A DNA stretch of 64,000 nucleotides from Providencia rettgeri (lineage in GTDB: Bacteria > Pseudomonadota > Gammaproteobacteria > Enterobacterales > Enterobacteriaceae): contig NZ_CP163512.1 in NCBI RefSeq assembly GCF_041075285.1, positions 2,914,001 to 2,978,000 of the forward strand, given 5' to 3'. The notes under the pieces were generated by a model, which ran no database searches, was not told the DNA's origin, and saw only the letters and a program-made list of their open reading frames with translations. The position numbers and the translations under genes were made by a program. This document shows positions 27,008 to 47,914 of this stretch, piece after piece (within the stretch, counting starts at the first letter, position 1; each line of letters begins with the position of its first letter).

Positions 27008-27017
27008 CTCTAACGTC

Positions 27018-27746: not shown

Positions 27747-27756
27747 ACATCATTCC

Positions 27757-30249: not shown

Positions 30250-30324
30250 TATGTTCCCTGTCAAAAAGATAAAAATAAAAAGGGAAAATAACAGGCGTTT
30301 ATCTGCCTGTTATTTAAAGTATGA

Positions 30325-30882
30325 TTAGAGGTAATTTAAAGCATAAGTCGCTTGAGAAATGATGCTACCTGTTTCTACTTTATCACCATTTGCTTCGACT
30401 CTAGCACTAAATACTAACTTGTTAGGGCCATCAGCTAATGGCAGATCAACACTGGTATCACCAACTTTCATTGTTGAGCCATCAGCGTTCATTAGGCGAA
30501 CACCAACACCTCTAGATGTCCCCGTATTCGCTAACAGTTCTTTTGCTGTTGAGTCTGGAGTCCCTGTGAAGGTAACCTTAACTTTGCTAACGGCAGGGAA
30601 AACAACTTGGTCTGAAGCATCTTTAACTTCACCCAAATCACAGTTCTCTAATTGAATACTGTATTGAACGCTTTGGCTAAATTTATTACCAGTTTCTAAT
30701 ACTTTATTAGCAACTTGGCCAAGATCAACGTTAATTGTACCATCACCTGGGATTGAGCAAGGTGCGTTGATAACTTTACCCGTGAAGTTAATAATACCGC
30801 TACCTTGATCTACTGTTGCAGCATTTGCAAAACCGAATGAAGAAGCGATAATTGAAGCTAATGCAATCTTAGTTAATTTCAT
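30325..30882 (-). CDS. Major fimbrial subunit, locus 2
   Basis: A 185-residue pilin with a signal peptide ending ANAA. The donor strand is GIINFTGKVINAPCSI, the second cysteine is in ENCDLGEV, and GVGVRLMNADG and a final ATYALNYL strand follow. First structural gene of the operon, so probably the rod subunit. Confidence 0.92.
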   Translation of the reverse strand: MKLTKIALASIIASSFGFANAATVDQGSGIINFTGKVINAPCSIPGDGTINVDLGQVANKVLETGNKFSQSVQYSIQLENCDLGEVKDASDQVVFPAVSKVKVTFTGTPDSTAKELLANTGTSRGVGVRLMNADGSTMKVGDTSVDLPLADGPNKLVFSARVEANGDKVETGSIISQATYALNYL

Positions 30883-31858: not shown

Positions 31859-32617
31859 CATTTTTATGAGTTATTCAGAAGTAAATTGGTAGGATTTTCA
31901 TTAACACAATAAACGAGTACGATATATAAAAAAGAAACACTATCACCGTTTATCTAACTTTAAGTGTAAAAAATTTAGCATATTCTTACCCTTTTAGAGA
32001 ATAGTGTTAACGATATGATTAAATAGACAACTTTCAAGAAAATCAGTAACAGTAAGAAATTTAAATGTTTTAAATAACATATAGTTATAAATGTTACAAA
32101 ATGTAATAATTTAATAGATATTATTAATGGGATTAAGTCAAAAAAAACCACCTAACAAAAATAAAACATAATATTTATACAATACGAAACGAATTAAGTG
32201 TAAATCGGATATTTATATTTGCAAAAATAGTTAATCACAGATAAAAATGCTTAATTTTATCCGCAGAAGGAAAATCCGCCTAATCAGTATAGTCGATGTT
32301 TGAGAACACTCAATCATCGGAATACAGCACGCTTTGACGTCTTATTATGCTGTTTTCAGGCTTTTAATTAACAAATAAGGATTAATACATAGTTTATTTT
32401 TTATATCGCCATATTATATAGGAATATTTCTCCTGTTAAGAGACTTTTTTCGAAGAATATAAGGAATATCAACTTTTTTACTCAAGGTTAACCATCAATA
32501 TCCCCATTTTTGCCTCTAACGCTAACTTTTGATAACCAATCGTTATCGAAAGGGAAAATAACTCATTATTTTTCTTCTTCGCAATGTGCTCTTATTTTGC
32601 TAAAGAAGGAGATACTT

Positions 32618-33607
32618 ATGAATACACAACCATTACTTCGAGTCGCAACTGTACAGTTCCAACATAAAGCAGGAGATAAAGCCTATAATCTAGCTTGTAT
32701 CCACGACTTTATTACACAAGCTGTGCAGCAGCAGGTCAAAATACTGGCCTTTCCCGAAATGTGCATTACGGGATATTGGCATGTCCCAAAACTCTCTAAT
32801 GAAGAAGTTTATCAACTTAGTGAAACCTTACACGATAGCCCGTCACTCGCCCTTATTCGCCAACGGGCTATCGAATTAGAGATGCTCATTGGTGTAGGGT
32901 TAATAGAAAAAGGGTTAGATGGTAAATGCTATAACACTTGGGTTGCTTGCATGCCTGATGGGCAGTTGCATGCACATCGAAAATTACATGCTTTTGAACA
33001 CCCGATTATTCAAAGCGGTGATAACTACACCGTGTTTGATACCCCTTGGGGAGTGAAAGTGGGTATTTTAATTTGTTGGGATAACAATTTAATTGAAAAT
33101 CCTCGAGCAACTGCGTTACTTGGTGCTGATATTATTCTTGCGCCACACCAAACGGGTGGAACGAACTCCAGTAGCCCTTACGGCATGAAACGCATACCAC
33201 TGCACTTATGGGAAAATAGAAAACAAAATCCACAAGCGCTGATTGATGCATTTCAAGGTGAGCATGGTCGTGGCTGGTTATTACGCTGGTTGCCTTCACG
33301 CGCCCATGATAATGGGGTCTTTTATGTGTTTAGTAATGGTGTGGGTCGTGATGATGATGAAATTCGCACGGGGAATGCGATGATAATTGACCCTTATGGT
33401 CGAATTATTCAAGAAACAGCGGCGATTGAAGATGATATGGTCATCGCTAATTTAGACCTTAGCTTACTCCCCACCTCCAATGGACGACGTTGGTTAATGG
33501 GAAGGCGTCCTGAGCTCTATCAGATCCTCAATACAACAATGGGTTACGAAACGGATATTCATCAGGTTCGCTTCGCGTCTCAATCGACACCTTTTATCGA
33601 AAAATAA
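32618..33607 (+). CDS. Nitrilase-superfamily carbon-nitrogen hydrolase
   Basis: The ATG at 32618 has AAGGAG 8 bp upstream; a longer in-frame start at 32510 adds a non-conserved stretch. The 329-residue enzyme shows the catalytic triad of the superfamily: Glu47 (AFPEMCITGYW), Lys122 (AHRKLHAFE) and Cys153 (LICWDNN). The GAGDxY-like QSGDNYTVFDTPWG segment is typical. Members hydrolyse amides, nitriles or N-carbamoyl groups; the substrate cannot be fixed here, though N-carbamoyl amidases look similar. It is followed 98 bp later by a LysR regulator on the same strand, then by the lipid cluster. Confidence 0.85.
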   Translation: MNTQPLLRVATVQFQHKAGDKAYNLACIHDFITQAVQQQVKILAFPEMCITGYWHVPKLSNEEVYQLSETLHDSPSLALIRQRAIELEMLIGVGLIEKGLDGKCYNTWVACMPDGQLHAHRKLHAFEHPIIQSGDNYTVFDTPWGVKVGILICWDNNLIENPRATALLGADIILAPHQTGGTNSSSPYGMKRIPLHLWENRKQNPQALIDAFQGEHGRGWLLRWLPSRAHDNGVFYVFSNGVGRDDDEIRTGNAMIIDPYGRIIQETAAIEDDMVIANLDLSLLPTSNGRRWLMGRRPELYQILNTTMGYETDIHQVRFASQSTPFIEK

Positions 33608-33705
33608 GTCAGTCATCAATCTAATCACTAACGCTATAGTGATTTATTCATTATATAGATACTATAGCGTTTATTATTTTCAGTGAGAGGTAACGATCAG
33701 ACATT

Positions 33706-34596
33706 ATGGATACTCGACTTCTTCACGCCTTTATTGTGCTTGCTGATACGCAAAATTACCGAGAAGCTTCAGCACGCTTATGTATTAGCCAACCTGCATT
33801 AACAAAGCAAATTAAATTATTGGAAAATCAGCTTAGCTTACGACTGTTTGAACGTGGGCGTCATGGTGCAGAACTCACCGAAGAGGGTCTTGCATTACTA
33901 CCGAGTGCTAAACTGGCGTTGAACCATATGCAAGCGTTTCGAAACCATGCATTGAAACTCAACCAAGAGCTCCCCAAGATTTTAAATGTCGGTTTTGGGA
34001 TCTCCGCCTTTGAGGAGGCCTCTTTATTTGTGGCTCGCCTACGGGAAAAGCTACCAAACGTTGCCATCCAACTGGACGATATGCCTTCATCTGTTATGAG
34101 CGAAAAGTTAAAAGCGCATCAACTTGATATCGCGTTTACTCGTCATGATAACCAAGCGTCAATAGAAAACCTGTTTAGCCAACCGTTAAAAACTGAAGTG
34201 TTAGCCCTCGCCATTGCGAAAGATTATCCACAAAATAGTTCAATACGCGATTATTTAACACAATATCCATTACTGATGTTACGTGCAGAGCGTGGACTTG
34301 GGCTTTATCAACAAATTCAATGTTATTTGCACTCTGAAGATCTTCATATCACCCCCTTACAAGAGGCAAACGATATACAAACACTGATTGCACTGGTTGC
34401 TGCCAAAGTGGGTATTAGCCTTGTACCTTACAGCGCAAAGTATATTGCGAGAGACGATATTCATTTAATTCCGCTGCATCATCATAAAGCGGCTAGCTGG
34501 CAAATCGACGTTATTTGGCAGGCGTCATTACCAACCTTATGGCAAAGCACTATCCGTACTTTAATCAGTAAGATCCATAAAGCCCCCCTCGAATGA
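33706..34596 (+). CDS. LysR-family transcriptional regulator
   Basis: This 296-residue protein has a clear N-terminal HTH (NYREASARLCISQPALTKQIKLLE, shown only in part here) and the LFERGRHGAELTEEG extension, then a two-lobed ligand domain. Unlike most LysR genes it is co-directional with both neighbours: the nitrilase upstream and the KAS III gene 92 bp downstream. Control of the biosynthetic cluster or of the nitrilase is likely but not shown. Confidence 0.88.
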   Translation: MDTRLLHAFIVLADTQNYREASARLCISQPALTKQIKLLENQLSLRLFERGRHGAELTEEGLALLPSAKLALNHMQAFRNHALKLNQELPKILNVGFGISAFEEASLFVARLREKLPNVAIQLDDMPSSVMSEKLKAHQLDIAFTRHDNQASIENLFSQPLKTEVLALAIAKDYPQNSSIRDYLTQYPLLMLRAERGLGLYQQIQCYLHSEDLHITPLQEANDIQTLIALVAAKVGISLVPYSAKYIARDDIHLIPLHHHKAASWQIDVIWQASLPTLWQSTIRTLISKIHKAPLE

Positions 34597-34688: not shown

Positions 34689-35687
34689 ATGTCCGATAAC
34701 AGGTCAATTGCACCACTTAAAATCATCGCTTCTGGCGTTGCTTTACCTGAAAATAAAATTTACTCCTCAATGCTTGATGAAAAACTCAATAAATCAACCG
34801 GGTTTGTGGAGAAACATTCTGGTATCGAATATCGCTATCATGCAAATAACACTGATTCACAAGCACAACTTGCTGCACAGGCGATTGAAAATGCATTACA
34901 ACAAAATGGGTTATCGCCAGAAAGTATTGATATGTTGATTAATGCCTCGGCTATCCCAGTTCAAGCTTTGCCTTGTTCTGCATCCCATATCCTTCAACAA
35001 TCTGATTTAAATGATGGTATTGCCTGCTTTGATATTAATTCAAGCTGCATTAGTTTTATTACCGCATTACAAGTGGCGGCAGGGATGCTGTCAACCAGCC
35101 AATTTCAACGAATAGCCATTGTTTCTGCCGACATTGCTTCACGTGGTATTGACTGGCAAGACAGAGAGTCATCACTCATTTTTGGTGATGGCGCAGCTTG
35201 TGTGATTGTTGAAAAAGGCGATGGTCGCAGTGGCATCATTTCGTACACTCATACAACCCACACTGACGGAATTGATTTTTGCGAAATTCGTGCTGGTGGA
35301 ACACGGAAAAATCCGCGCTCGGGGATGGTCGATGATGATTTTCTGTTTCATATGCAAGGCAAAAAACTCTTTCGCATGGCATCAGCCTTAATTGAAGAAT
35401 TTATGCAACGGGTATATACAGAATCAAACTTACGCCTCGAACAGATTGATACGGTAATCCCTCACCAAGCAAGCCATCTATCATTAGAACATATGCGCCA
35501 GCGTGTTGGCGTCACATCGGAACAACTGATTGATATCTATCGTCACCGAGGTAACCAAGTGGCGGCGTCAATTCCATCCGCACTGCACGAAGCGATTATT
35601 ACTGACCGTTTTTATGAAAAACAACATGTGATGCTAATTGGTACTGCGGCTGGATTAGCCTTATGCGCCATGGTGCTCGTGCCATGA
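34689..35687 (+). CDS. 3-oxoacyl-ACP synthase III-like condensing enzyme (KAS III/OleA-like)
   Basis: This thiolase-fold enzyme has 332 residues from the ATG at 34689; a TTG at 34656 is less likely. The catalytic triad is complete: Cys120 (INSSCISF), His259 (VIPHQAS) and Asn289 (RGNQVAAS). It would condense an acyl-CoA or acyl-ACP with a second acyl unit. It is not the housekeeping FabH: the active-site context is INSSC instead of AAAC, and the gene sits outside the fab cluster at the head of seven overlapping genes. The primer and extender are unknown. Confidence 0.88.
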   Translation: MSDNRSIAPLKIIASGVALPENKIYSSMLDEKLNKSTGFVEKHSGIEYRYHANNTDSQAQLAAQAIENALQQNGLSPESIDMLINASAIPVQALPCSASHILQQSDLNDGIACFDINSSCISFITALQVAAGMLSTSQFQRIAIVSADIASRGIDWQDRESSLIFGDGAACVIVEKGDGRSGIISYTHTTHTDGIDFCEIRAGGTRKNPRSGMVDDDFLFHMQGKKLFRMASALIEEFMQRVYTESNLRLEQIDTVIPHQASHLSLEHMRQRVGVTSEQLIDIYRHRGNQVAASIPSALHEAIITDRFYEKQHVMLIGTAAGLALCAMVLVP

Positions 35688-36685
35688 AGATCTTAGTCAC
35701 AGGTGCCACTAGCGGGCTTGGCAGAAATGCTAGTGAGTACTTACTGGGGCAAGGATTTGACGTTGTCGCTTGTGGGCGAAACCCACAAGCGGCAGAACAA
35801 TTGGTTCAAATGGGGGCAAAATTTGTCCCTTGTGAACTGGCTGAGCTTTCTTTGCAACAGGCCAAAGAGATGATGGCAGGCTGTGATGCCATCTGGCATT
35901 GCGCAGCACTTTCTTCCCCATGGGGCAAGCGGCAAGATTTTGAAAACATAAATCTTGAGGCGACTCGCACATTAGCCACCGCAGCAGGCCAGTTGGAAAT
36001 AGCTCGCTTTATTCATATTTCGACACCTGCAATTTATTTCAATTTTACCCACCAGCGGAACATTGCCGAAACAACCCACAATACTCATTTTGCCAATCAA
36101 TATGCACGAACAAAATATTTAGCCGAGACAGCTATTTGGCAATGTGTTGAACAATATCCTGCAACACGTTATACCCTTTTACGTCCCCGAGGCTTATTTG
36201 GTCCCCATGATCGTGTGCTTTTACCCAGATTATTGGCGCAAATTAAATCTCGCCACGGTAAGTTGATCCTCCCTAATGGAGGGAATAACTATTTTGACTT
36301 AACCTATGTTGGGAATGTGGTTCACAGTATGCAACTTGCCACCGATAAAGAAGGGTTACAAAGCGGTGCGACATATAATATAACCAATCAACAGCCACAA
36401 GCGCTGAAACACACCTTGCAACAGCTATTTACCGAACTTTCCCTAGCATGTGAAATTCGCTCAGCACCGTACCCACTATTATATGGCATTGCTACGCTGT
36501 TAGAGGGTGTTGGTCATCTCACCGGAAAAGAGCCACTTTTCACCCGTTATAGTCTTGGTGCAGCCTATTTCACCATGACACTGGATAACCAAAAAGCTCA
36601 ACAAGAATTAGGTTATTATCCCGTATATTCGATGGAACAAGGGATCCATTTAACCGCTAACTGGCTAAAACAGCAGGAGAAGTGA
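35684..36685 (+). CDS. NAD(P)-dependent epimerase/dehydratase or 3-beta-HSD-like reductase
   Basis: The start overlaps the KAS III stop as ATGA. The 333-residue extended short-chain dehydrogenase has the Rossmann motif TGATSGLGRNA near residue 7, the catalytic Tyr and Lys in YARTKYLAE, and a RPRGLFGPHD stretch. It belongs to the group containing 3-beta-hydroxysteroid dehydrogenases and OleD, which reduce beta-keto lipids to beta-hydroxy lipids. That would be the logical next step after the condensing enzyme. Confidence 0.85.
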   Translation: MKILVTGATSGLGRNASEYLLGQGFDVVACGRNPQAAEQLVQMGAKFVPCELAELSLQQAKEMMAGCDAIWHCAALSSPWGKRQDFENINLEATRTLATAAGQLEIARFIHISTPAIYFNFTHQRNIAETTHNTHFANQYARTKYLAETAIWQCVEQYPATRYTLLRPRGLFGPHDRVLLPRLLAQIKSRHGKLILPNGGNNYFDLTYVGNVVHSMQLATDKEGLQSGATYNITNQQPQALKHTLQQLFTELSLACEIRSAPYPLLYGIATLLEGVGHLTGKEPLFTRYSLGAAYFTMTLDNQKAQQELGYYPVYSMEQGIHLTANWLKQQEK

Positions 36686-37488
36686 TGTTAACCATTCACC
36701 AATATGATGTCGGATACTGCACCCATCCAGGCTGTGTTGCCCTCAAAGGTGCCAGTTTTAAGTCTTGCAAGTTCCCTGCCCGAGCCTGGTTAATTGAAGA
36801 TGAAAGTCAGCGTTGGTTATTTGATACGGGGTATGCTACCCATTTTTATGACCATACGCGTAAAGGGATCATGCGGTTATATCGTGCGGTAACCCCTGTG
36901 TACTTCGAAAGTAAAGATGCATTAGTCAACCAACTCGCTCATGACGGTCTCAAACCGAAAGACATTAATGGGGTGATCCTGTCTCATTTCCACGGCGATC
37001 ACATCGCTGGTTTACGAGATTTTCCAGCAATACCAATCATTTGCTCAGGTGATGGTTGGGCAAAAACGCGCCCTTTAACCGGCTTTGCTGCGCTAAAAAG
37101 TGCTTTTGTTAGCGGGCTATTACCCGATGATTTTGAGCAACGCACTGTCTTTTATGAAGGTTTTGAACGTGTTGCTCTTCCTAGTGAATTGCAAATACTG
37201 GGTGAAGGTTATGCCGTGGATCAATCAAAAAAATTATTGATCGTACCACTTCCTGGGCACGCCGCGGGTCATATTGGCTTATGTGTTTTAACTGATTCAG
37301 GATGGGTACTGCTTGCGGGTGATGCCGCATGGTCGCCAAGCAATTATCGAGAGTTACGAGGCCCGATGGCTATCGCCAATATCATCATGGATGATAAACA
37401 GGCATATTATGAAACACTGAATAAATTGCATGAAATTGATAAGCAAAAAATTGTTATTCAGCTATGTCATGAAGGTGATTTACAGTGA
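36685..37488 (+). CDS. Metallo-beta-lactamase-fold hydrolase
   Basis: A 267-residue protein. I use the ATG at 36685 (TGATG overlap, CAGGAGAAG upstream); a GTG at 36682 is also possible. The zinc motif SHFHGDHIAGL has His101, His103, Asp105 and His106, and later ligands are in PLPGHAAGHIGL and LLAGDAAW. The overall pattern resembles AHL lactonases and other ester or lactone hydrolases. In this operon it may hydrolyse a thioester or lactone intermediate, the role an alpha/beta hydrolase (OleB) has in olefin clusters. Confidence 0.85.
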   Translation: MLTIHQYDVGYCTHPGCVALKGASFKSCKFPARAWLIEDESQRWLFDTGYATHFYDHTRKGIMRLYRAVTPVYFESKDALVNQLAHDGLKPKDINGVILSHFHGDHIAGLRDFPAIPIICSGDGWAKTRPLTGFAALKSAFVSGLLPDDFEQRTVFYEGFERVALPSELQILGEGYAVDQSKKLLIVPLPGHAAGHIGLCVLTDSGWVLLAGDAAWSPSNYRELRGPMAIANIIMDDKQAYYETLNKLHEIDKQKIVIQLCHEGDLQ

Positions 37489-38762
37489 TTTTGTCAATGC
37501 TCTGGCACTATTGGCGAGCCCGCCGATTGATGTTCAAAAACCGAGAGGATTTAGACGCTTACCAACAGAAGCGGTTAGCCCAATTTAAACGTAAAACGTT
37601 GGCAAAAAGCCCCTATTTTCGCGCTTTTTGCCATCGCCCCTTACATGAGTTTCCTATCATGAATAAATCCATCATGATGGAACATTTTGACCAAATGAAC
37701 ACGGCGGGGTTGTCGAGCCAAGTGCTTCTTGCATGTGCACAAAAAAGTGAACAATCCCGTGATTTCGCACCGAAAGTGGGTCCCTATAGCGTTGGATTAT
37801 CCTCTGGCACATCTGGGCGACGCGGTGTGTTTGTGGTGAGTCCGCAAGAACAAAACGTTTGGTCTGGCAGTATGTTAGCTAAAATGCTGCCCAATGGCTT
37901 ATTCCATGGTGAGCGGATTGCCCTGTTTTTACGCGCCAACAATAATTTGTATGAAAGCGTGAATAACCGTTGGATCGCCTTGCGGTTTTACGATCTTTTT
38001 GGGGATTTTAACCAGCAATTAGCCGCCCTCGAAGCTTATCAGCCTTCAATTATTGTCGCTCCTGCGCAAGTGTTGTGCGCCATTGCCGATGCCATCAACC
38101 ACCAGCAACTTCAGTTAGCCCCTCATAAAGTGATTTCAGTGGCAGAAGTCCTAGAGCCACAAGATAAACAGAAACTTAAGCGCTGTTTTCCACAAGTGGG
38201 TGAAGTGTACCAAGCAACAGAAGGCTTTTTGGGATGCACCTGCTCACACGGCACGCTACACTTAAATGAGTGTTTCCTTCATATCGAACCTAATTGGCTC
38301 GACGAAACACGATTTTCGCCGATAATCACCGATTTTACTCGCCAAACACAACCAATTGTCCGTTACCAGCTTGATGATATCTTAGTGGTCAAACAAACTC
38401 CCTGCCCTTGCGGATCCGCAGAACTGGCTATTGAACGTATTGAAGGACGCTGTGATGATTTACTACAACTGCCTGATCAGCAAGGTAATAAGGTGACAAT
38501 TTTTGCCGATCCTTGCGCACGAGTGATCGTGAATAATTTACCGCTAACAGCGGATTTTCGCCTGATCCAGCAAGGTCACCGTTTGCGTTTGCAAGCCGAA
38601 TGCAGCACAGATGAACTCGCCCATTGCCATCAACAACTTGAAAACTACTTAACCAGCCAACATGTGGATATTCAACAATTGCATTGGGAATTATTAGCCG
38701 AGCCTATTGAACAATCACTTTCCATCAAAAAACGCCGCATTACCCGCAAGGATCCTCAATGA
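37485..38762 (+). CDS. F390-synthetase/phenylacetate-CoA-ligase-like adenylating enzyme
   Basis: A 425-residue member of the ANL-like CoF synthetase group. The AMP-binding P-loop is LSSGTSGRRG. An EVYQATEGFLGCTC region and a cysteine pair in TPCPCGSAEL, possibly zinc binding, follow. The GTG at 37485 overlaps the previous stop (GTGA) and has GAAGGTG upstream; the next ATG is at 37497. Such enzymes activate carboxylic acids as adenylates. The acid here is unknown. Confidence 0.82.
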   Translation: MILSMLWHYWRARRLMFKNREDLDAYQQKRLAQFKRKTLAKSPYFRAFCHRPLHEFPIMNKSIMMEHFDQMNTAGLSSQVLLACAQKSEQSRDFAPKVGPYSVGLSSGTSGRRGVFVVSPQEQNVWSGSMLAKMLPNGLFHGERIALFLRANNNLYESVNNRWIALRFYDLFGDFNQQLAALEAYQPSIIVAPAQVLCAIADAINHQQLQLAPHKVISVAEVLEPQDKQKLKRCFPQVGEVYQATEGFLGCTCSHGTLHLNECFLHIEPNWLDETRFSPIITDFTRQTQPIVRYQLDDILVVKQTPCPCGSAELAIERIEGRCDDLLQLPDQQGNKVTIFADPCARVIVNNLPLTADFRLIQQGHRLRLQAECSTDELAHCHQQLENYLTSQHVDIQQLHWELLAEPIEQSLSIKKRRITRKDPQ

Positions 38763-39370
38763 CAAACAAGGCTTTATTTATACGCTTAATTTACTGTTTG
38801 ATTGGCTGGGGCACCGTCGGCATTGTTTATCGCTACACAGGCCAGGTTGTCGATAATGCCAATGTACTTACCCCCAGCAGTATTGATAACGCAGTACAAT
38901 TCTCCCCTAATGCGATTTGGCTTTATCTGTCGTTTTTTTTATTTATTCCACTGGGCTATTTTTGTAGCCCCATGGAGCGCACGCGTTCATTAATGTTTGC
39001 GATGCAACTGTGTGCGTTGGTCTCGGGTGGCGTTTATTTGCTGTACCCAACCACCATGCTGTACCACCAATATGATTTAACAACATTTTCTGGTCGTGCA
39101 TTATCTGCCTTAATCAATATCGATAGCCCACAAAATTTATTACCTTCTCTCCATGTCTCATTGACTCTTGTGGTGCTCAATGCATTATGGTCAGTAAAAT
39201 ATAAAATCCGTACACTCACTTATTGTTTATGGGCTACCGCCATTTGTGTATCCGTATTGGTGTTAAAACGCCACTTGTTTATTGATGTTGTCACTGGAGC
39301 AGTAACAGCTTGTGCTGCGTTGTTGGTTGTCTACGCCACAAAATACCGCTTAGAGAGAAAACGTTCATGA
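38759..39370 (+). CDS. PAP2-like membrane phosphatase/head-group transferase
   Basis: This 203-residue protein has about five to six hydrophobic helices. It carries the PAP2 motif 2 as PSLHVSL and motif 3 as KRHLFIDVVTG (His-x3-Asp). The first PAP2 motif (KxxxxxxRP) is not visible. PSLH in place of PSGH is typical of inositol-phosphoceramide or sphingomyelin synthase-like transferases. It overlaps both neighbours by 4 bp. It may remove or swap a phosphate head group on the pathway's lipid. Confidence 0.78.
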   Translation: MTNKALFIRLIYCLIGWGTVGIVYRYTGQVVDNANVLTPSSIDNAVQFSPNAIWLYLSFFLFIPLGYFCSPMERTRSLMFAMQLCALVSGGVYLLYPTTMLYHQYDLTTFSGRALSALINIDSPQNLLPSLHVSLTLVVLNALWSVKYKIRTLTYCLWATAICVSVLVLKRHLFIDVVTGAVTACAALLVVYATKYRLERKRS

Positions 39371-40491
39371 ATGAATTAACCTTTCCCATTATTTTTATGT
39401 TAGTGGTCGTTATTGCTGAAGGCTTGGTGATCGCCAAAACACAAAAGGGCACAGTAAGTTGGCAAGAACTGGTATTCAACCTGAACTCTGGTCATATTAT
39501 GTTGTGGTTATTTAGAGGGTTAGAGATTTTTTGCTATGGGTTTGTGGTCACTCACTACTCCTTCAATCTCGTTGAAAATTGGCCAACGGTGTTAGTCTGG
39601 ATTTTTACGATTTTAGCGTGGGACTTCGGTTTCTACTGGCTACATCGTTTGCACCATACCTACCGTGTATTATGGGCAGTGCATGTTGTGCACCATCAAG
39701 GGGAACATTACAACCTGTCATTGGGGGTTAGAAACTCTTGGTATTCATCGCTCACATCAATACCTTTCTTTATGTTATTGGCATTAATGGGGATCCCGCT
39801 AGACATTTTTCTGACGGTGTCCATTTTGCACTATACCATCCAGTTTTTTAACCACAGCGCCCTGATCCCGCGTTTAGGTTGGCTAGAGAAATTTATGGTG
39901 ACTCCGCAGCACCACCGTGTGCATCATGTGAAAGAAGGGCATTATTCCAACCGTAATTTTGCAGGTAGCTTTATTTTTTGGGATAAGCTGTTTGGTACAT
40001 TTGCTAAGTTACCTGAAACTGAACATCACTTTGGTATCAAAGGAGCTCCAGCCTCGGAAAATCCATTTATTGATAGTAATTTACCTTTTTGGCGTATCGT
40101 TAAACGCAGCAGTAAACCCGCGCAAAAGCCCGCGCCGCTATTTCGCGTGAACCAAATGGCTTTGGTGATAGGTACGATACTCTTATTTACTCTAGTTATC
40201 GGTTACGTCTACCTTTACGGATATGGTTACCAAGGCACCACACAGCAACAAATGATTTTATTTGTACTTTTGGCTCTGGGTACCGTCGCGCTTTCAGGGA
40301 TTTCTGATGGGCGAAAATCTGGGCTAATAAGCTGGTTTTTTATCGCCTGCTTATTACTGATTTGCGTGGTATTTATTTGGCAATGGACAACACCATTTTG
40401 GATCCTTTTCACCAGTGCATTGTGGCTGCACAGCTTCTTGATGCTCATTGGCGTTGGCCGAAAACCTGTCGCGGTGGCAAATGTCACTTAA
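39367..40491 (+). CDS. Sterol-desaturase/fatty-acid-hydroxylase superfamily di-iron enzyme
   Basis: A 374-residue integral membrane oxygenase. The ATG at 39367 overlaps the previous stop (ATGA). The eight-histidine pattern is present: HRLHH (93-97), HVVHH (106-110), a lone His164, and HHRVHH (182-187), followed by the family landmark FIFWDKLFGTF. About 170 more residues with four or so helices form an added C-terminal membrane part. Members hydroxylate or desaturate sterols, sphingoid bases, carotenoids or fatty chains. Confidence 0.88.
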   Translation: MNELTFPIIFMLVVVIAEGLVIAKTQKGTVSWQELVFNLNSGHIMLWLFRGLEIFCYGFVVTHYSFNLVENWPTVLVWIFTILAWDFGFYWLHRLHHTYRVLWAVHVVHHQGEHYNLSLGVRNSWYSSLTSIPFFMLLALMGIPLDIFLTVSILHYTIQFFNHSALIPRLGWLEKFMVTPQHHRVHHVKEGHYSNRNFAGSFIFWDKLFGTFAKLPETEHHFGIKGAPASENPFIDSNLPFWRIVKRSSKPAQKPAPLFRVNQMALVIGTILLFTLVIGYVYLYGYGYQGTTQQQMILFVLLALGTVALSGISDGRKSGLISWFFIACLLLICVVFIWQWTTPFWILFTSALWLHSFLMLIGVGRKPVAVANVT

Positions 40492-41584
40492 GCCACTTAG
40501 ACCACTGGGTTACCAGCACCGTCACGATCAAGATTTCCAGAAAGCCTTGAATAAGGCGGCGAAACAGTATTTACATGATAACGCCGACCACCGCTTTGCT
40601 GACGGGCGTTTTTATGCCAAAAGTGCAGCATTGATACTGTGCTGTTTAGGTAGCTATTTTGCAGCGTTGTCTATCAATGCATCGTGGGCTTTTTTTGTTT
40701 TTTACCCCTGCTTTATCTGCTTCGCTTTATTATTAGCAATTAATTTAGTGCATGATGCCTCGCACAATGCGATTTTTAAGCACGCCAAAGCCAATTATTG
40801 GCTCAACTTTTGGGTGACGCTTCCCCTTGGCTTAGACCCCGAATGTTGGCGTGTGCGGCATATTATTTTTCATCATGCTCACACCAATATTCGCCATTAC
40901 GATTTGGATATTGAAGAGAATTTTGTCTTACGGCAAACCCCTTACCAACGCTGGTATCCGTTTATGCGAGCCCAACATGTGTATTGGCCATTAATTGCAG
41001 CAATGACATTCCCTGCTCTCATTTGGTTCTTTGATTGGAAGGATCGGTTTCATTTTACCCATGTAGCCCCCTATATGCGTCATCAAGGACGGCAAGGTAT
41101 TTTGGCGTTTATCATGGCGAAGCTGCTACACCTAGTCATCGCTATCCTGATCCCTGCGATGGTTTTGCAAGATATTAGCCTCAGCACACTGTTTTTGACC
41201 TACATTCTCAGCCAAATGTTTGCATCATTAATATTTGTTGTGCTGATACTTGGCACCCATTGGGCAAAAGCCACTTTTTATACCTCACCCAAAGAAGGCA
41301 ATATGCCCCATGGTTTTTATACTCACACCTTTTCAACCACCTATGACTGGCAAACAACTCCCCGCTGGCTAACCTATTGGCTTGGTGGGTTAAACCTCCA
41401 TCTAACTCACCACTTATTCCCTAACTGGAATCACCGCCATTACCCTGCCCTTGCAGAAATAATTAAGCAAACGGCGCAGCAATTTTCGATGGACTATCAC
41501 TGTATTAGTGCTAAACAGTTGTTTATATATCAACAACAGTTCTTAAAAGAGATGGGATCAGGCAAACAAGCGGATAAACACTGA
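40481..41584 (+). CDS. Membrane fatty acid desaturase
   Basis: A 367-residue protein starting at the ATG at 40481, which overlaps the previous gene by 11 bp. Three histidine boxes are complete: HDASH (91-95), RHIIFHHAHTN (126-136) and LHLTHHLFPNW near the C-terminus, with four hydrophobic segments between. It would introduce a double bond (or hydroxyl) in an acyl chain using O2 and a di-iron centre. Last gene of the overlapping seven-gene operon. Confidence 0.88.
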   Translation: MSLKPLRPLGYQHRHDQDFQKALNKAAKQYLHDNADHRFADGRFYAKSAALILCCLGSYFAALSINASWAFFVFYPCFICFALLLAINLVHDASHNAIFKHAKANYWLNFWVTLPLGLDPECWRVRHIIFHHAHTNIRHYDLDIEENFVLRQTPYQRWYPFMRAQHVYWPLIAAMTFPALIWFFDWKDRFHFTHVAPYMRHQGRQGILAFIMAKLLHLVIAILIPAMVLQDISLSTLFLTYILSQMFASLIFVVLILGTHWAKATFYTSPKEGNMPHGFYTHTFSTTYDWQTTPRWLTYWLGGLNLHLTHHLFPNWNHRHYPALAEIIKQTAQQFSMDYHCISAKQLFIYQQQFLKEMGSGKQADKH

Positions 41585-41624
41585 GTTTTGATGATGTAAA
41601 ACTCAGTGCGTTGTCACACCCCAT

Positions 41625-42941
41625 TTACCTATCAATAATAATGTTTTGGTTCACGACGTTTTGCTCGCTATTTCCTACCATTTTGGCAAATTTATCCAGT
41701 GGGTCGGTACGAAACGCATATAAGCGTTTTAAGGCAAATGGGTTATCTCCCAGCTTCACTTTTCCTTGGATAGTCGTAACCGCAAGATGTAATCCGGCTT
41801 CTTTCGCTGCTTCCATCGCCGATGCGTTATAACCACCATACGGGTAGGCTAAATAACGTTGTTCCGGCTCGAAGCGGCTCAAGATCCTCATAGAACGTTT
41901 AAAATCCAGCATGATAGTGTGTTCTTTGCGACTAAACAGGATCGGGGAGTTATGATTATCTAAACGATGTAAAAAGTGTGTATGCGACTGAATATTAAAC
42001 ACATCTTGACTGTTTTTAATTTCTTGTTTACTCATAAATTGCAAAGAGTCTGCCGACCACTTTTGCGGTTGTGTTTTAATCCGTGAAGAAATCACAAATA
42101 GCGTCGCTTGTTGCTGATTACGCCTTAAAATGGGCAGCGCATAACGGTAAACCGATTTCAAACCATCATCAAAAGTAAGTACTACGGCTTTCCCCGGCAG
42201 GTTGGCTGTTTTATTTAAATAATCTTCCACATCTTCGAGAGACAAGGTTTGGTAACCTGCATCTTTCAGGTAATTCATTTGCTCGCTAAATGCCTCAACC
42301 GATGTTGTGGTTGAGGTATGGCGAAAGTTTTTATTTTCGCTGTCTTGCAAAATATGGTGATACGTTAAGATAGGAATGCCTTTATCTAGCGCCACATCTT
42401 GCAAACGCACATACCCTAAACGATCCCCAAGACGGATGGTTAGCCATGCGGTTTTCTCACCGCTTTTATCTGTTTTAATCATTCGAGATAAAACCGGGTA
42501 GCGCAAATTATCCCATAAAGAGGCGATTTGTGGGCTATGACTATCTGTTGTGCGATAAACTGGCGTTTTTTGATGGGTGATTAAATAATCATAAATCGGG
42601 TTTTGTAAATCATTGAGCCTGTCAGCTTCTGGCACATAACGGGGCTTTTGATGAGCTAAAGATGTCGTTTTAACAAAAGCATAATCATGACCAAATTGCA
42701 TCGCACAATAGTCCCCTGCGGGGGAATAAGCATAAAAACCGTGATCTGCATTTAGCTCAGCGACAGCACGCATTTTACCGGCAATGGGGGAAAAAATAAT
42801 CTCATTCTCTTTGGTTTGCACTAGTTTAGGCGGGATTTCCGCAAGCTTCCAATCATCGGTATTGTTTATCTCAGCCGCCAACGAAAGAGAAATTGAATTT
42901 ATAAATAATACGCAAAGCAGTAAGAAAAATCGTTTACACAT
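41625..42941 (-). CDS. Secreted polysaccharide deacetylase (NodB domain)
   Basis: The 438-residue product has a signal peptide (MCKRFFLLLCVLFINSISLS) and an N-terminal region of about 170 residues that looks like two small SH3-type or beta-rich modules. After GIPILTYHHIL comes a NodB deacetylase domain: metal-binding Asp in LTFDDGLKS, zinc histidines in QSHTHFLHRL, and YPYGGYN later. It would remove acetyl groups from a cell-wall or exopolysaccharide substrate, similar in layout to PgaB's first half. It faces the lipid cluster tail to tail, 40 bp away. Confidence 0.85.
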   Translation of the reverse strand: MCKRFFLLLCVLFINSISLSLAAEINNTDDWKLAEIPPKLVQTKENEIIFSPIAGKMRAVAELNADHGFYAYSPAGDYCAMQFGHDYAFVKTTSLAHQKPRYVPEADRLNDLQNPIYDYLITHQKTPVYRTTDSHSPQIASLWDNLRYPVLSRMIKTDKSGEKTAWLTIRLGDRLGYVRLQDVALDKGIPILTYHHILQDSENKNFRHTSTTTSVEAFSEQMNYLKDAGYQTLSLEDVEDYLNKTANLPGKAVVLTFDDGLKSVYRYALPILRRNQQQATLFVISSRIKTQPQKWSADSLQFMSKQEIKNSQDVFNIQSHTHFLHRLDNHNSPILFSRKEHTIMLDFKRSMRILSRFEPEQRYLAYPYGGYNASAMEAAKEAGLHLAVTTIQGKVKLGDNPFALKRLYAFRTDPLDKFAKMVGNSEQNVVNQNIIIDR

Positions 42942-43281: not shown

Positions 43282-44394
43282 ATGAAAATAAAAGAAATTA
43301 GCACCTTTATCATGCACGTACCGGTCACTAATGACCTAATTGGTGACTCAACCCATAGCATTACCCATTGGGGAATGCCGGGTGTGATGATTAAAACAGA
43401 ATGTGGTTTAGTCGGTTATGGCCACACAGGAACACACGCCGACATTACAACAGACCGCTTAATTACCACCATCATTGAAGATGTGTTTGGGCCAATGCTT
43501 CTTGGAGAAGATCCAACTGAAGTGCGTTATTTACACCGTAAACTCACTCGCAGCTCAACCAACATTTGGGTGGGACGCGGTGGTTTAATGCAAATGGCTA
43601 TCTCAGCCATTGATATCGCCCTGTGGGATTTAAAAGCCAAAGCAGCTCAACAGCCCCTGTGGCAACTATTTGGCGGCTCCAAACACAATAAAGTGAATGC
43701 ATATAATACTGACTGCGGTTGGTTAGTGCGCAGCCAAGACGATCTGGTTGATGATTGTAAAAAAATGATCTTCGAAGAAGGCTTTAAAGCTATCAAAATG
43801 AAGATCGGTAAACCCGACCCACGTGAAGATTTACAACGTATCGAAGCTGTTCGCAACGCAATCGGCGACGATATTGACTTAATGGTCGATGCTAATGGTA
43901 AATGGGATATCAGCATCGCTAAACAATATGGTCACCGTTTAAATGATTTCAATATCAAATGGTTTGAAGAACCATTGTGGCACGATGACGTGGCGAGCCA
44001 TAAGCAATTAGCCGCTTATATGGATACGCCAATCGCTTTAGGTGAATTACTGTATCACAATGATTCATTTAAAGAATTTGTACTAGCTGGTGCCGTTGAC
44101 TATTTACAACCGGATGCAACGCGTTGTGGTGGTTTAACCGCAGTTTGGGAGATTGCCGACTTAGGTATGGCATTTAACCTGCCAGTCACTCCGCACCATG
44201 GCGATATGATGCAGGCACAATTGCATCTTGTTATGGCGCACCCTGCCTGTTCATTATTGGAGTTTATTCCATGGACACTGGATTGCTTTGTTGACCCAGT
44301 GGAAGTGGTTGACGGTGTGTACAGCACCCCAACCGCACCGGGAGCAGGGACAACGTTAAAACCTGAAGCATTAGCGAAATTTAACGTGAAATAA
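43282..44394 (+). CDS. Enolase-superfamily sugar-acid dehydratase (mandelate racemase family)
   Basis: A 370-residue mandelate-racemase/muconate-lactonising family enzyme. The metal ligands are Asp203 (VDANG), Glu229 (FEEP) and Glu255 (LGE). General-base candidates are the KxK pair Lys172/Lys174 (KMKIG) and the Asp278-His305/306 dyad (DATRCGG, TPHHGD). Known relatives dehydrate aldonates and aldarates such as galactarate, talarate or rhamnonate to 2-keto-3-deoxy acids. The exact substrate is not readable from these motifs. It is paired with an MFS transporter downstream and linked by an ExuR-like site to uxaA, so a hexonate or hexarate related to uronate degradation is likely. Confidence 0.85.
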   Translation: MKIKEISTFIMHVPVTNDLIGDSTHSITHWGMPGVMIKTECGLVGYGHTGTHADITTDRLITTIIEDVFGPMLLGEDPTEVRYLHRKLTRSSTNIWVGRGGLMQMAISAIDIALWDLKAKAAQQPLWQLFGGSKHNKVNAYNTDCGWLVRSQDDLVDDCKKMIFEEGFKAIKMKIGKPDPREDLQRIEAVRNAIGDDIDLMVDANGKWDISIAKQYGHRLNDFNIKWFEEPLWHDDVASHKQLAAYMDTPIALGELLYHNDSFKEFVLAGAVDYLQPDATRCGGLTAVWEIADLGMAFNLPVTPHHGDMMQAQLHLVMAHPACSLLEFIPWTLDCFVDPVEVVDGVYSTPTAPGAGTTLKPEALAKFNVK

Positions 44395-44401
44395 TAAAAC
44401 A

Positions 44402-44444
44402 TCCCTTTCCCGATATTTTAATTATTTACAGCACGGGAAAGGGA
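44402..44444 (+). terminator. Hairpin after the dehydratase gene
   Basis: The perfect 11-bp stem TCCCTTTCCCG/CGGGAAAGGGA has a 21-nt loop, starts 8 bp after the stop codon and is without a long T-run. It may be a partial terminator before the transporter gene. Confidence 0.55.
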
Positions 44445-44486
44445 AATATAACAAGAATTATTCATTTTAAATTACTTATTTACACC

Positions 44487-44604
44487 CTAAATAATTCATG
44501 GTGCAGTTAGACGACAAATGAATGAGACGCTAGGAGCCGACATCCGTAGGTGACTAGTCCGAATGAGTGCAGTCAACAACACTGCAACTTGAAGAATGAC
44601 GAGT
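44487..44604 (+). repeat. ERIC element (single copy)
   Basis: This stretch of about 118 bp resembles the ERIC intergenic repeat: it begins TAAATAATTCATGGTGCAG, has a central CTAGGAGC...GGTGACTAGTC, and ends CTTGAAGAATGACGAG. The ends are imperfect inverted repeats, so the whole can fold into one long hairpin. It sits between the dehydratase and the MFS gene and is more diverged than the tandem copies at 52018-52446. Confidence 0.85.
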
Positions 44605-44710
44605 ATTTTAGCTCTATACTCTACTCTGCTGGTTATTCAGCGGTGGGCTAAACACGTAATAAAAATGAATAGATAACATCATTACCTTATAAAAAATACT
44701 GGGGTGAACC

Positions 44711-46021
44711 ATGTCCACCAATATTGATCACTTATCATCAGCGACCAGCAAAGCGATACGAAAAATAATACCGATGGTGGTATTAATGTTTATATTGGCT
44801 TACTTAGATCGCTCGAATATTGGCTTTGCTAAACAAGAATTCCAACTAACAACAGGGTTAAGCGACGCAGCTTATGCATTTGGCGCAGGGATTTTCTTTA
44901 TCGGTTACGCTTTATTTGAAGTACCAAGTAATATCTTATTATACCGCATTGGCGCGCGAGTTTGGCTCTCGCGGATCATGATAACTTGGGGGTTAATCTC
45001 CGCAGCGATGATGTTCGCCCATGATGAAACCACCTTTATTGTGTTACGTTTCTTACTGGGTGTGAGTGAAGCGGGCTTCTTCCCTGGGGTTATTTTATAT
45101 TTAACCTTCTGGTTCCCGCAAAATATCCGTGCACGTGTTACTGGCTACTTCCTGTTTGGTGCACCACTGGCGTTTATTATTGGCGGTCCATTATCAGGAT
45201 CATTATTGGCCTTAGAAGGCTCGTTTTTTGCTTTCGGGTTGTACGGCTGGCAGTTAATGTTTGTTGTGGAAGGTCTATTAGCTTCCATCGTCGGGGTATG
45301 GGTATTCTTCTACCTTGATGATCGCCCAGAAAAAGCGAAATGGCTGACAGAGGATGAAAAGAAGGCCCTGACAGCGAAACTCGCCTTAGAAGAGGACGCG
45401 AAAAAAGGCCACAGCCCAAAAGGTGCGCTGAGAGCCCTGTTAGATATGCGTGTTCTATACCTCTGTTTGATTTGGTTCACCGTTCAAGTGTGTGGATACG
45501 GCATCTATTTCTTCTTACCAACACAAATCGGAACATTATTAGGCAGTAAAGTCGGTGTATTAGTCGGCTTTGTAACGGCAATTCCACCTCTGTGTGCGGC
45601 TATCGCTGTTTACTATGTACCACGTATTTCTGAGCGTTTAAAAGAGCGCCGTAAAGTGGCAGCGATCACCTTTATGCTCGGGGCTGCGGGGATTGCGGTA
45701 TCCGGCTTGTTCGACAGTATTCCCGTCATTGCTATCATCGCACTGTGTGTGGCAGCGGCAGGTCACTTAGCGATGCAACCGTTATATTGGAGCTTTCCAT
45801 CCGCTTACTTAGGCGGAACCGCTGCGGCATCGGGAATTGCCTTAATTAACTCCGTGGGTAACTTAGGCGGTTTTGTGGCACCAAATTTAAGAGTCTGGGC
45901 AGAAACCACCTTTGAATCCGCACGAGCTGGCTTATATTTTATTGCCTTAGTTGCCTTTATCGGTGGTCTGTTAATCCTTACCTTAAGAAGACTTGGCATC
46001 GAAAAGAAATTTGAAGATTAA
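44711..46021 (+). CDS. MFS sugar-acid transporter (anion:cation symporter family, RhmT-like)
   Basis: A 436-residue transporter with about twelve hydrophobic helices. The motif LAYLDRSNIGFAK near residue 30 and GVSEAGFFPGVILYLTFWFP are hallmarks of the ACS family of organic-acid/proton symporters. It is closer in pattern to E. coli YfaV/RhmT than to ExuT. It would import the substrate of the adjacent dehydratase. Confidence 0.88.
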   Translation: MSTNIDHLSSATSKAIRKIIPMVVLMFILAYLDRSNIGFAKQEFQLTTGLSDAAYAFGAGIFFIGYALFEVPSNILLYRIGARVWLSRIMITWGLISAAMMFAHDETTFIVLRFLLGVSEAGFFPGVILYLTFWFPQNIRARVTGYFLFGAPLAFIIGGPLSGSLLALEGSFFAFGLYGWQLMFVVEGLLASIVGVWVFFYLDDRPEKAKWLTEDEKKALTAKLALEEDAKKGHSPKGALRALLDMRVLYLCLIWFTVQVCGYGIYFFLPTQIGTLLGSKVGVLVGFVTAIPPLCAAIAVYYVPRISERLKERRKVAAITFMLGAAGIAVSGLFDSIPVIAIIALCVAAAGHLAMQPLYWSFPSAYLGGTAAASGIALINSVGNLGGFVAPNLRVWAETTFESARAGLYFIALVAFIGGLLILTLRRLGIEKKFED

Positions 46022-46041
46022 AATCAGTTGATGTGAAACCT

Positions 46042-46068
46042 TCCCGAGTCATATGTGGTGGCTCGGGA
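46042..46068 (+). terminator. Intrinsic terminator after the MFS gene
   Basis: The stem TCCCGAG/CTCGGGA with a 13-nt loop is followed by TTTTCTATTTTT and lies about 20 bp after the stop codon. Confidence 0.8.
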
Positions 46069-46180
46069 TTTTCTATTTTTAGCTCAAAGGCATTGAATTA
46101 CCTGTTGCTGTTGTTCATGATTGAACATAACCCCACCCAATGTCATGATAAGGTCCACGACTCGTGCAGGGAGCATTCAA

Positions 46181-46915
46181 ATGAACATTGCTGTACAAAA
46201 CAGTCAGTCAGTTATGACGCATGACGATATACTAGACGTTTTACAAACCAATAGTTGGTTCAGTAACTTACCTAAGTATTTAATTACCGCCTTGCTGGAA
46301 TGCGCCACACTGCGTTTTTATCATGATAGTGAAATGGTCCATTACCAAGGTGATCCCGCCCGTGGATTGTACGCAGTCATTCAAGGCTCGGTAAAAGTCA
46401 GTTCTATCTCCACCGATGGACGTGAATGCGTATTTCGCTACCTTTCTCCAGGTAACTGGTTTGGTGAAATTGCCATGTTGGATAAATCCGCACGCACTCA
46501 CGATGCGAAAGCCATTAGCCCTACAATTCTGCTGACAATTTCCCCGAAAGATCTCTCACTGATCTTGGAAAAATACCCCGTTTTCTACCAATTTTTAAAT
46601 ATTTTGCTCTGTAAAGTGATCCGTAATGCGTTCACCATTATTAATGATAGTGCCCTACTTTCTGTTTCGGCAAGGCTTGCAAAACGCCTTTTAAGTTTAG
46701 CGCAAGGATATGGAGAACCCCATGAAAAAGGTATCCAACTGAGCTTATATCTCACTCAAGATGACCTTGCGACCATCATTAATACCACTCGCCAAACCAT
46801 TAATAAGCGCTTGGTGGCATGGGAAAAATTGGGCTGGATTGATGCAAAATATGGGAAGATTGTCTTAGTCAACCTTCCCGCATTAAAGCAGATTTCAGAA
46901 GATGATGAAGATTAG
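46181..46915 (+). CDS. Crp/Fnr-family transcriptional regulator
   Basis: The ATG at 46181 (CAGGGA upstream) gives 244 residues; in-frame starts further upstream add a non-conserved leader. The N-terminal cyclic-nucleotide-type barrel contains GLYAVIQGSVKV and GNWFGEIAML. The C-terminal winged helix has LTQDDLATIINTTRQTINKRL. There is no N-terminal FNR-type cysteine cluster. It ends exactly where the convergent exuR gene ends (TAG directly abutting CTA). Its ligand and targets are unknown. Confidence 0.86.
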   Translation: MNIAVQNSQSVMTHDDILDVLQTNSWFSNLPKYLITALLECATLRFYHDSEMVHYQGDPARGLYAVIQGSVKVSSISTDGRECVFRYLSPGNWFGEIAMLDKSARTHDAKAISPTILLTISPKDLSLILEKYPVFYQFLNILLCKVIRNAFTIINDSALLSVSARLAKRLLSLAQGYGEPHEKGIQLSLYLTQDDLATIINTTRQTINKRLVAWEKLGWIDAKYGKIVLVNLPALKQISEDDED

Positions 46916-47677
46916 CTAGTCGTTTTGGTCAACGGGTGGGCTATCTGCAAAAAAATAGCGATCCATGGTGAATTCAAAATCATCACTCGTGGCGTTAAAC
47001 AACATCTTTTTGGTGTTTTCCAAATGTTGCCACATCGCTTGTCTTGCACCTTTTGGGTCACGGCGGGCTAAGGCCTGTAAGATTTGGTCGTGCTCATCAC
47101 ACCAACTTTCAATAGAACGGTTATCAATATGTTCATGGAGCTTTAACCAGTATGGGTTGCGCAACCGCTGGCTCCACATCTGTTCAACAATCACCACCAT
47201 CGCGCTGTTATGCGTCGAAGCCGCAATTTGCATATGAAATGCCAGATCCCACGCCGAGTCACGAAACCTATCTTCTTTACGTGCATTCTTTTGGATCTCA
47301 AGCAATTTTAAAATATCTTCTTTGGTAGCTTGGGTCGCGGCAAACTCAGCAATATGGCTCTCAATCAACTGCCTTGCTTGTAATAGTTCAAATGGGCCAC
47401 AGCGGCTAAACTCTAACCCACCTTCGGTATTCACTGAGTTGTTAGACCGATTGCTAATTACATGTATACCAGACCCCTTTCGCACATCCACATAACCTTC
47501 GACTTCTAACATGATAATGGCTTCGCGGATCACGGTACGACTGACATTCATTTCATCCGCTAATAGCCTTTCAGCGGGTAACTTAGTGCCAACTGGGTAC
47601 TCATCATTTTCAATGCGTTCTTTCACCAGTGCAGCCACTTGCTGGTACAAGCGCGGTTCGCTCTCAGATGAGCTCAT
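46916..47677 (-). CDS. exuR: GntR/FadR-family hexuronate regulon repressor
   Basis: I start at the ATG at 47677 because AAGGAG precedes it on the minus strand; the frame is open to 47698. The 253-residue product aligns almost throughout with E. coli ExuR as I remember it: [55 protein letters not shown] and [12 protein letters not shown]. It represses uronate genes until galacturonate or a derivative binds. It is divergent from uxaA with an ExuR-like site between them, and convergent with the Crp-like gene. Confidence 0.93.
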
Positions 47678-47791
47678 GATTTTCTCCTTTTGCAGCATAA
47701 CCTAACTTGGCAACCCTTTATTGAGCTCCAGTATAGCGAAATTCCCCAAGGATGGGGAAGCGAGAATAGGGCAGAAAATTATTCCACCTTA

Positions 47792-47803
47792 AATTGGTAT
47801 AAC
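47792..47803. promoter_or_regulatory. ExuR-like operator between exuR and uxaA
   Basis: AATTGGTATAAC lies in the 237-bp divergent region. The same 12 bp, inverted, occur at 43109-43120 before the dehydratase gene. It would let ExuR control uxaA and itself. Confidence 0.72.
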
Positions 47804-47914
47804 ATCTTTTAAAGTTATAAACCATGCCGTATAATGCATGAAAATTAGGCAATAAAATTAACGCTCATCACCCTCTTGATCTTTTCAGTCTGATGTACTG
47901 CTCAGGGAGCAAAC

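Follow-up and report, generated by a model that had tools for sequence, protein, structure and literature searches.

In a 64,000-nucleotide stretch of the Providencia rettgeri genome (the whole stretch analyzed, referred to here as the window), seven open frames on the plus strand at positions 34689-41584, all intact, form a cluster that encodes a 3-ketoacyl-acyl carrier protein synthase III (KAS III)-type condensing enzyme, a short-chain dehydrogenase/reductase (SDR), a metallo-beta-lactamase-fold (MBL) hydrolase, an adenylate-forming ligase, a PAP2-type membrane enzyme, a di-iron hydroxylase, and a di-iron desaturase. The cluster is real, conserved, and uncharacterized, and it is organized in two layers: a four-gene core (KAS III-SDR-MBL-ligase), found in three or more phyla, and a finishing module that can be exchanged. 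Judging from the enzyme families, the operon probably encodes a lipid pathway of some kind. More tentatively, and as the version that we put forward here, it may encode a condense-reduce-activate pathway that resembles the Ole system but is built mostly from other enzymes, joining two acyl chains into a membrane lipid. A first-pass annotation, made from the letters and open frames only, had named no characterized enterobacterial pathway with this gene set, and our literature search, whose coverage left out most subscription journals, likewise found no paper characterizing the cluster. What would be new is a conserved seven-gene variant of the condense-reduce-activate theme for which no characterized match was found.

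The first gene of the operon (34689-35687) encodes the KAS III-type enzyme of 332 amino acids (PF08545/PF08541) with a Cys120-His259-Asn289 triad. It is followed by a 333-amino acid extended SDR, an OleD-like reductase with Tyr140-Lys144 (35684-36685; PF01370/PF01073), a 267-amino acid MBL hydrolase (36685-37488, with an alternative GTG start at 36682; PF00753), and a 425-amino acid PaaK-like ligase related to F390 synthetase, which starts with GTG (37485-38762; TIGR02304). The finishing module consists of a 203-amino acid PAP2_3 membrane phosphatase or phosphotransferase carrying PSLH and RHxxxD motifs (38759-39370; PF14378, PF01569), a 374-amino acid di-iron membrane hydroxylase of the sterol desaturase/fatty acid hydroxylase family (39367-40491; PF04116), and a 367-amino acid di-iron membrane fatty acid desaturase (40481-41584, or 40448-41584 in its longer frame; PF00487). 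The first-pass annotation had reported this order and overlaps of 1 to 11 bp between all neighbors from the KAS III to the desaturase. The measured overlaps (4, 1, 4, 4, 4, and 11 bases) agree with it, and from these the seven genes are very likely co-transcribed. Its family assignments and its view of the set as lipid-type enzymes were also borne out by Pfam and NCBIfam, as six of the seven proteins match the expected Pfam domains, while the ligase, which has no Pfam match, is identified by TIGR02304.

To describe what accompanies the ligase, we laid out a census of 58 ligase-bearing loci; as the loci were selected by their ligase, the census shows what follows this gene and not how frequent the cluster is. 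It comprises the window, Providencia vermicola, Paenibacillus nuruki, nine of the 60 records of a plasmid collection, two Escherichia coli chromosomes, and further genomes of the same genus (seven), family (30), class (three), and phylum (four). Locus L161, whose stretch ends before the ligase, and L004, at 25% identity, stand outside it. The KAS III-SDR-MBL-ligase order is present in 52 of the 58 loci, three of them with an inserted ATP-grasp gene. Among the other loci, L129 from a Fusobacterium contains all four core genes with the KAS III last, L084 and L120 contain a ligase without the other three core genes, L114 and L116 have no KAS III match (the L116 ligase is also short), and L117 shows a split KAS III match, a partial ligase, and no MBL match. 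L116 and L117 are decayed copies. In L084, on plasmid pMPPla107 of Pseudomonas amygdali, the lone ligase lies among hypothetical proteins with an ATP-grasp-like match nearby.

What follows the core varies considerably. The PAP2-hydroxylase-desaturase set is present after the core in 32 loci (13 of which have two desaturase genes), and one more locus contains PAP2 and hydroxylase genes at a contig end, so that two or three lipid-family membrane enzymes occur in 33 loci. A glycosyltransferase of family GT21 is encoded in 11 loci, five of which also contain the PAP2-hydroxylase-desaturase set. In other bacteria, the core is accompanied by ATP-grasp, GNAT, and Rieske genes. None of the six loci with Rieske genes has the di-iron hydroxylase, which looks like one oxygenase type swapped for another. 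Given that the core, spread over three or more phyla, combines with different finishing modules, solving a single product would annotate a family of clusters.

Orthologue sets were drawn from 54 of the 58 loci (L084, L116, L117, and L120 were left out), and proteins of 0.75-1.4 times the expected length were kept, giving 52 KAS III, 53 SDR, 54 MBL, 54 ligase, 33 PAP2, 32 hydroxylase, and 32 desaturase sequences. The first-pass annotation had noted that all key catalytic residues that it could check are present in the window proteins, and the catalytic residues of all seven proteins are at least 97% conserved across 32 to 54 orthologues. These include Tyr140/Lys144 of the SDR, the HxHxDH, His193, Asp214, and His263 metal-site residues of the MBL hydrolase, Lys415 of the ligase, Ser130, His132, Arg171, His172, and Asp176 of the PAP2 enzyme, and the histidine boxes of the hydroxylase and desaturase, and the Cys120/His259/Asn289 triad of the KAS III is kept in all 52 orthologues. 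For ten locus pairs, the ratio of nonsynonymous to synonymous substitution (dN/dS, by NG86) ranged from 0 to 0.31 where dS was unsaturated, with the highest values in the very close E. coli pair L080/L128. As the core order is kept in 52 of 58 loci, the catalytic residues are conserved, and dN/dS is this low, the gene set is more than a chance assembly.

The nearest solved chains of the condensing enzyme are MxnB (4v2p, 5e-46) and CorB (4yuc, 1e-41), followed by a FabH (2ebd, 6e-41), and in one alignment the enzyme is 32% identical to MxnB, 25% to the FabH of its own genome, and 21% to OleA of the ole cluster in L172. In a small tree (24 sequences, including three KAS outgroups), MxnB/CorB and the 19 KAS III sequences of the clusters form a group apart from FabH with a support of 0.93, while the placing of MxnB/CorB inside rather than beside the cluster group has a support of 0.20. 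OleA and PpyS use a glutamate base, in place of which MxnB and CorB have Val94, and the authors of that study suggest that a beta-ketoacyl carbon may lose its proton without such a base (PMC4578411). In the 52 KAS III orthologues, the column of this glutamate contains Leu (45) or Ile (7) and never Glu, whereas the OleA of L172 carries Glu-Pro at this site. The cluster KAS III has the Cys-His-Asn triad and carries no acidic residue at the base position. FabH shares both features, with Phe at this position in the alignment, so they are not decisive for an MxnB/CorB type. Two chemistries remain for the KAS III, either joining of two chains as in MxnB, which binds two long chains in two tunnels (PMC5724707), or use of malonyl as in FabH.

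The best NCBIfam model of the SDR is OleD (NF042422), matched at 157 bits against a cut-off of 580. The nearest solved chain of the MBL hydrolase is 4-pyridoxolactonase, followed by acyl-homoserine lactone lactonases. The ligase lies well over the TIGR02304 cut-off (552 against 251.9 bits) and matches only this model and PaaK-type ones, its solved relatives being weak and also PaaK-type. The “F390 synthetase” in its family name is annotation only; F390 synthetase proper adenylylates coenzyme F420, and the context here is lipid-like. The PAP2 enzyme, hydroxylase, and desaturase each have four or five hydrophobic segments in a simple hydropathy scan; no solved relatives were found for the hydroxylase or desaturase (E 1) or for the PAP2 enzyme (E 10), and the hydroxylase weakly matches the OlsE model (73 bits against a cut-off of 475).

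Based on these families, each reaction, the order of the steps, and the product are inferred as follows. The KAS III would join two activated acyl chains, one of them a beta-ketoacyl thioester, in the MxnB/CorB manner that needs no glutamate base, and the OleD-like SDR would reduce the keto group of the condensed product to a hydroxyl. The MBL-fold enzyme would then hydrolyze a thioester or lactone to the free acid, and the PaaK-like ligase would activate this carboxylate again, through an acyl-adenylate from which an ester, amide, or lactone would be formed. Subsequently, the PAP2 enzyme would remove or transfer a phosphate head group, while hydroxylation and desaturation of the membrane-bound product would fall to the two di-iron enzymes. 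We tentatively propose this two-chain pathway because of the MxnB/CorB relatives of the KAS III, the Leu or Ile at its base column, the OleD-nearest SDR, the conserved gene order and catalytic residues, and the lipid-family membrane enzymes (33 loci) and GT21 enzymes (11 loci) that accompany the core. The same sequence of condensation, reduction, hydroxylation, and glycosylation has been proposed for a published oleA cluster that includes glycosyltransferase and P450 genes (PMC7064751).

The overall logic is that of the OleABCD olefin and oleACD beta-lactone pathways, which also combine a thiolase-fold condensing enzyme, the SDR OleD, and an AMP-forming ligase, and some ole clusters add a hydroxylase and a glycosyltransferase (PMC7064751). 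Actual membership of the window operon in this olefin/beta-lactone pathway would explain why its SDR best matches two OleD models (157 and 145 bits), and the condense-reduce-ligate logic is common to both. It is nevertheless highly improbable, and we reject it: the SDR score is far below the OleD cut-off, the catalytic Glu of OleA is replaced in 52 of 52 KAS III orthologues, the KAS III shares only 21% of its residues with the OleA of an ole cluster, a PaaK/F390-type ligase takes the place of OleC, and no OleB-type alpha/beta hydrolase or OleC-type match is present among the seven proteins. Instead of the alpha/beta hydrolase, the operon encodes the MBL-fold enzyme, and it adds the PAP2 enzyme, di-iron hydroxylase, and desaturase.

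MxnB and CorB of the myxopyronin and corallopyronin systems are the best solved relatives of the KAS III itself and share with it the triad and an aliphatic base-position residue. MxnB, however, acts at the end of a large polyketide assembly line that has carrier proteins of its own (PMC5724707), unlike the stand-alone operon of the window with its SDR, MBL hydrolase, and ligase. Since these relatives make pyrones (PMC4578411, PMC5724707), the beta-keto product of the KAS III might instead cyclize to a diffusible lactone, pyrone, or quinolone-like signal or antibiotic, with the MBL enzyme as a lactonase or thioesterase, the ligase coupling an acid to an amine or alcohol, and the membrane enzymes only trimming the tail. 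The lactonases nearest to the MBL hydrolase would fit such a compound, as would the cores found elsewhere with ATP-grasp, GNAT, and Rieske genes or bare. We regard this as quite unlikely, given that most enterobacterial loci of the census have membrane enzymes of lipid families or GT21 after the core, and that neither a dedicated exporter nor a cognate receptor was recognized among the operon genes by Pfam and NCBIfam. A membrane lipid or glycolipid is more likely the product than a diffusible compound.

The Pseudomonas quinolone signal (PQS) pathway is a further point of comparison, as PqsA, PqsD, and PqsE, which we take to be an AMP-ligase, a KAS III, and an MBL-fold enzyme, occur together in it. 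Unlike that pathway, the operon includes membrane lipid enzymes. The PQS entries 3h76 and 3h78 rank well below MxnB as relatives of the KAS III (6e-24 at best), and no PqsE-named chain is among the 20 solved matches of the MBL hydrolase at E 0.001, in a comparison of names and not of folds. The solved relatives of the KAS III, ligase, and MBL hydrolase thus gave no sequence support for membership in a PQS-like pathway. An anti-phage defense system was also considered and rejected, as PADLOC matched none of the seven proteins.

A possible but rather doubtful route for the same core follows FabH chemistry, in which the KAS III would extend a single acyl primer with malonyl, the SDR would form a 3-hydroxyacyl chain, the MBL enzyme would release it, and the ligase would attach it to a head group, giving a one-chain acylated polar lipid (e.g., ornithine-lipid-like) finished by the hydroxylase and desaturase. 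The fold and triad of the KAS III are those of FabH, the FabH chains come close behind MxnB/CorB, a hydrophobic residue at the base position is found in FabH as well, and the faint OlsE match of the hydroxylase points in the same direction. On the other hand, the SDR is nearest to OleD, an enzyme of 2-alkyl-3-oxo acids and not of simple 3-oxoacyl chains, the KAS III shares more of its residues with MxnB than with the FabH of its own genome, and that genome already encodes this separate FabH elsewhere, over its model cut-off.

Several observations weigh against the two-chain membrane lipid. FabH 2ebd scores almost like CorB as a relative of the KAS III, a published tree places MxnB/CorB within the FabH clade (PMC4578411), and our own tree has few outgroups and places MxnB/CorB inside or beside the cluster group with a support of 0.20. 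There is no carrier protein gene within the operon and no glycosyltransferase in the window's own operon, and the bare core in five loci implies that the lipid-finishing module is not obligatory. The close correlation of pairwise distances among the four core proteins (r 0.95-0.96) counts in favor of the pathway, but this correlation, like that between core and finishing proteins (r 0.81-0.93), could arise from common descent alone.

Longer clusters hint at what the finished product may carry. In L090, for example, the further genes encode a second SDR, a GT21 enzyme, a 190-amino acid protein, and a GT28-like enzyme, and in such relatives the GT21 and GT28 enzymes would glycosylate the product of the two-chain pathway. 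At E 0.1, the L090 GT21 has no solved relatives other than two ceramide glucosyltransferase sequences (3e-14), and its best NCBIfam model is HpnI, at 97 bits against a cut-off of 310. The Fusobacterium locus L129 also has a GT21 gene beside the core, together with a 215-amino acid homologue of the 190-amino acid protein (22% identity, 1e-8). These GT21 enzymes beside the core are our reason for regarding its product as a lipid with a hydroxyl group. The two homologues (L090:14023-14595 and L129:6148-6795), which both adjoin the GT21 gene, have no Pfam or NCBIfam match.

GT21 in the longer relatives, the sterol-desaturase-family hydroxylase, the desaturase, and the PAP2_3 enzyme are related in type to the finishing enzymes of bacterial sphingolipid and ceramide pathways. 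Unlike in those pathways, the chain here would be made by the KAS III; a Pfam scan of the cluster proteins and their accessory proteins, which did not extend to the rest of the genome, found no serine palmitoyltransferase. In its most specific form, the proposal would be an undescribed way of joining two acyl chains, by an MxnB-type ketosynthase, an OleD-like reductase, and an MBL/PaaK-like pair for release and renewed activation, into a lipid that mimics ceramide without serine palmitoyltransferase, is hydroxylated and desaturated, is glucosylated by GT21 in relatives, and forms part of the envelope in Providencia and in E. coli lineages including Nissle 1917, CFT073, and EC958. We consider this specific form unlikely.

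The operon is not confined to this genome, as a gene-neighborhood search showed the seven genes to be widespread, in Providencia, in many related gut bacteria, and in E. coli. TIGR02304 was matched above its cut-off in 20 of 24 genus genomes, 32 of 246 family genomes, two of 369 genomes sampled from the class (the window's own among them), and seven of 398 sampled from the phylum. Protein searches returned 1638 KAS III, 1960 MBL, and 1262 hydroxylase matches, and the best 120 of each span many genera, among them Xenorhabdus, Serratia, Pectobacterium, Cronobacter, Snodgrassella, and Burkholderia. Among named loci, that of P. vermicola comes nearest, with a 90% identical ligase. Among 5426 complete E. 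coli genomes, 672 contain the ligase gene and 671, about one in eight, contain at least 80% of a 7-kb query for the whole cluster; named carriers include Nissle 1917, ABU 83972, EC958 (recorded as ST131), JJ2434, UPEC 26-1, and CFT073. The E. coli cluster consists of the same seven genes in identical order, its proteins being 48-64% identical to those of the window, and the window DNA gave no match to E. coli by megablast.

In E. coli, the cluster (which includes c1689 of CFT073) lies between narI and the tRNA-Tyr/purU region. It is likewise uncharacterized; unlike the window operon, it has no LysR gene in front and stands directly behind narGHJI. K-12 MG1655 lacks it; there, ychS, rttR, tpr, and the tyrosine tRNAs come after narI. 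A recent island in E. coli is not the simplest reading, because narI immediately precedes the cluster, with narGHJI on the cluster's strand, in 11 of the 58 loci (L080, L089, L093, L094, L095, L097, L101, L102, L105, L128, and L154), eight of which come from other family genomes, with NarI identity as low as 81%. Loss from K-12 appears at least as likely as such an island. Locus L080, recorded as a plasmid of E. coli KE48 (NZ_CP141085.1), is a 386-kb record with narGHJI, purU, hns, and galU around the cluster, and is therefore probably a piece of chromosome. The pairing of oxygen-dependent lipid enzymes with an anaerobic nitrate reductase is puzzling.

An in vivo hint, the one entry on the cluster that our literature search found, comes from a transposon screen of CFT073, in which c1689, a “putative 3-oxoacyl (acyl carrier protein) synthase III”, stands last among the 50 lowest-fitness mutants listed for mouse spleen, with a value of 8.47 against a threshold of 6.41 and one insertion listed (PMC3855560). 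We take c1689 to be the cluster KAS III, as its name and position agree: the same table gives narX as c1682 and ychK (rssA) as c1698 (PMC3855560), and the current CFT073 record has the seven genes between narI and purU, within the narX-rssA stretch. The available part of that paper contains no single-gene confirmation of the c1689 phenotype. Of the 50 rows, 49 carry a locus number, all from c1025 to c3057, and narX and ychK, which flank the cluster, are listed as well (PMC3855560), so that a regional or replication-dosage effect is possible for c1689. If the lipid reading is true, this hint of a spleen fitness role could have a chemical basis despite the positional bias of the list, and E. coli, the most thoroughly studied of bacteria, would have in well-known clinical and probiotic strains a complete lipid pathway that was overlooked owing to its absence from K-12.

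Upstream of the operon in the window, a LysR-type regulator gene (33706-34596, plus strand; PF00126/PF03466) ends 92 bases before the KAS III gene and possibly regulates the operon. A LysR gene adjoins the operon in five of the nine Providencia-group loci laid out, and the arrangement of a nitrilase-family gene followed by the LysR gene (window 32510-34596) likewise precedes it in five of the nine. A consensus promoter scan did not rise above shuffled sequence (14 found against a shuffle mean of 19.5), and the window contains no Rfam match at gathering score and no tRNA gene by ARAGORN. Downstream, a hairpin at 41579-41608 (plus strand) spans the last stop codon of the operon and may act as a terminator, with a 12-bp stem, −14.9 kcal/mol, and a z of −3.3, equal folding being reached in two of 200 shuffles. 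It is common to a convergent polysaccharide deacetylase gene on the minus strand (41625-42941), whose product is weakly PgaB/IcaB-like (115 and 96 bits, below cut-off). Such a deacetylase gene also adjoins the operon in L002, L123, L125, and L127 (four of four).

Further from the operon, five minus-strand genes at 25477-30882, with AT-rich DNA on either side (near 23-24 kb and 31-32 kb), are presumably a chaperone-usher fimbrial-like cluster, with an 835-amino acid usher-like frame and small pilin-like frames. On the other side, sugar-acid genes (mandelate-racemase family, galactarate/altronate dehydratase), a sugar ATP-binding cassette transporter, and an FGGY kinase are encoded at 43282-49408 and 52440-59545, and a HipA-like kinase domain protein (PF07804) at 62152-63213.

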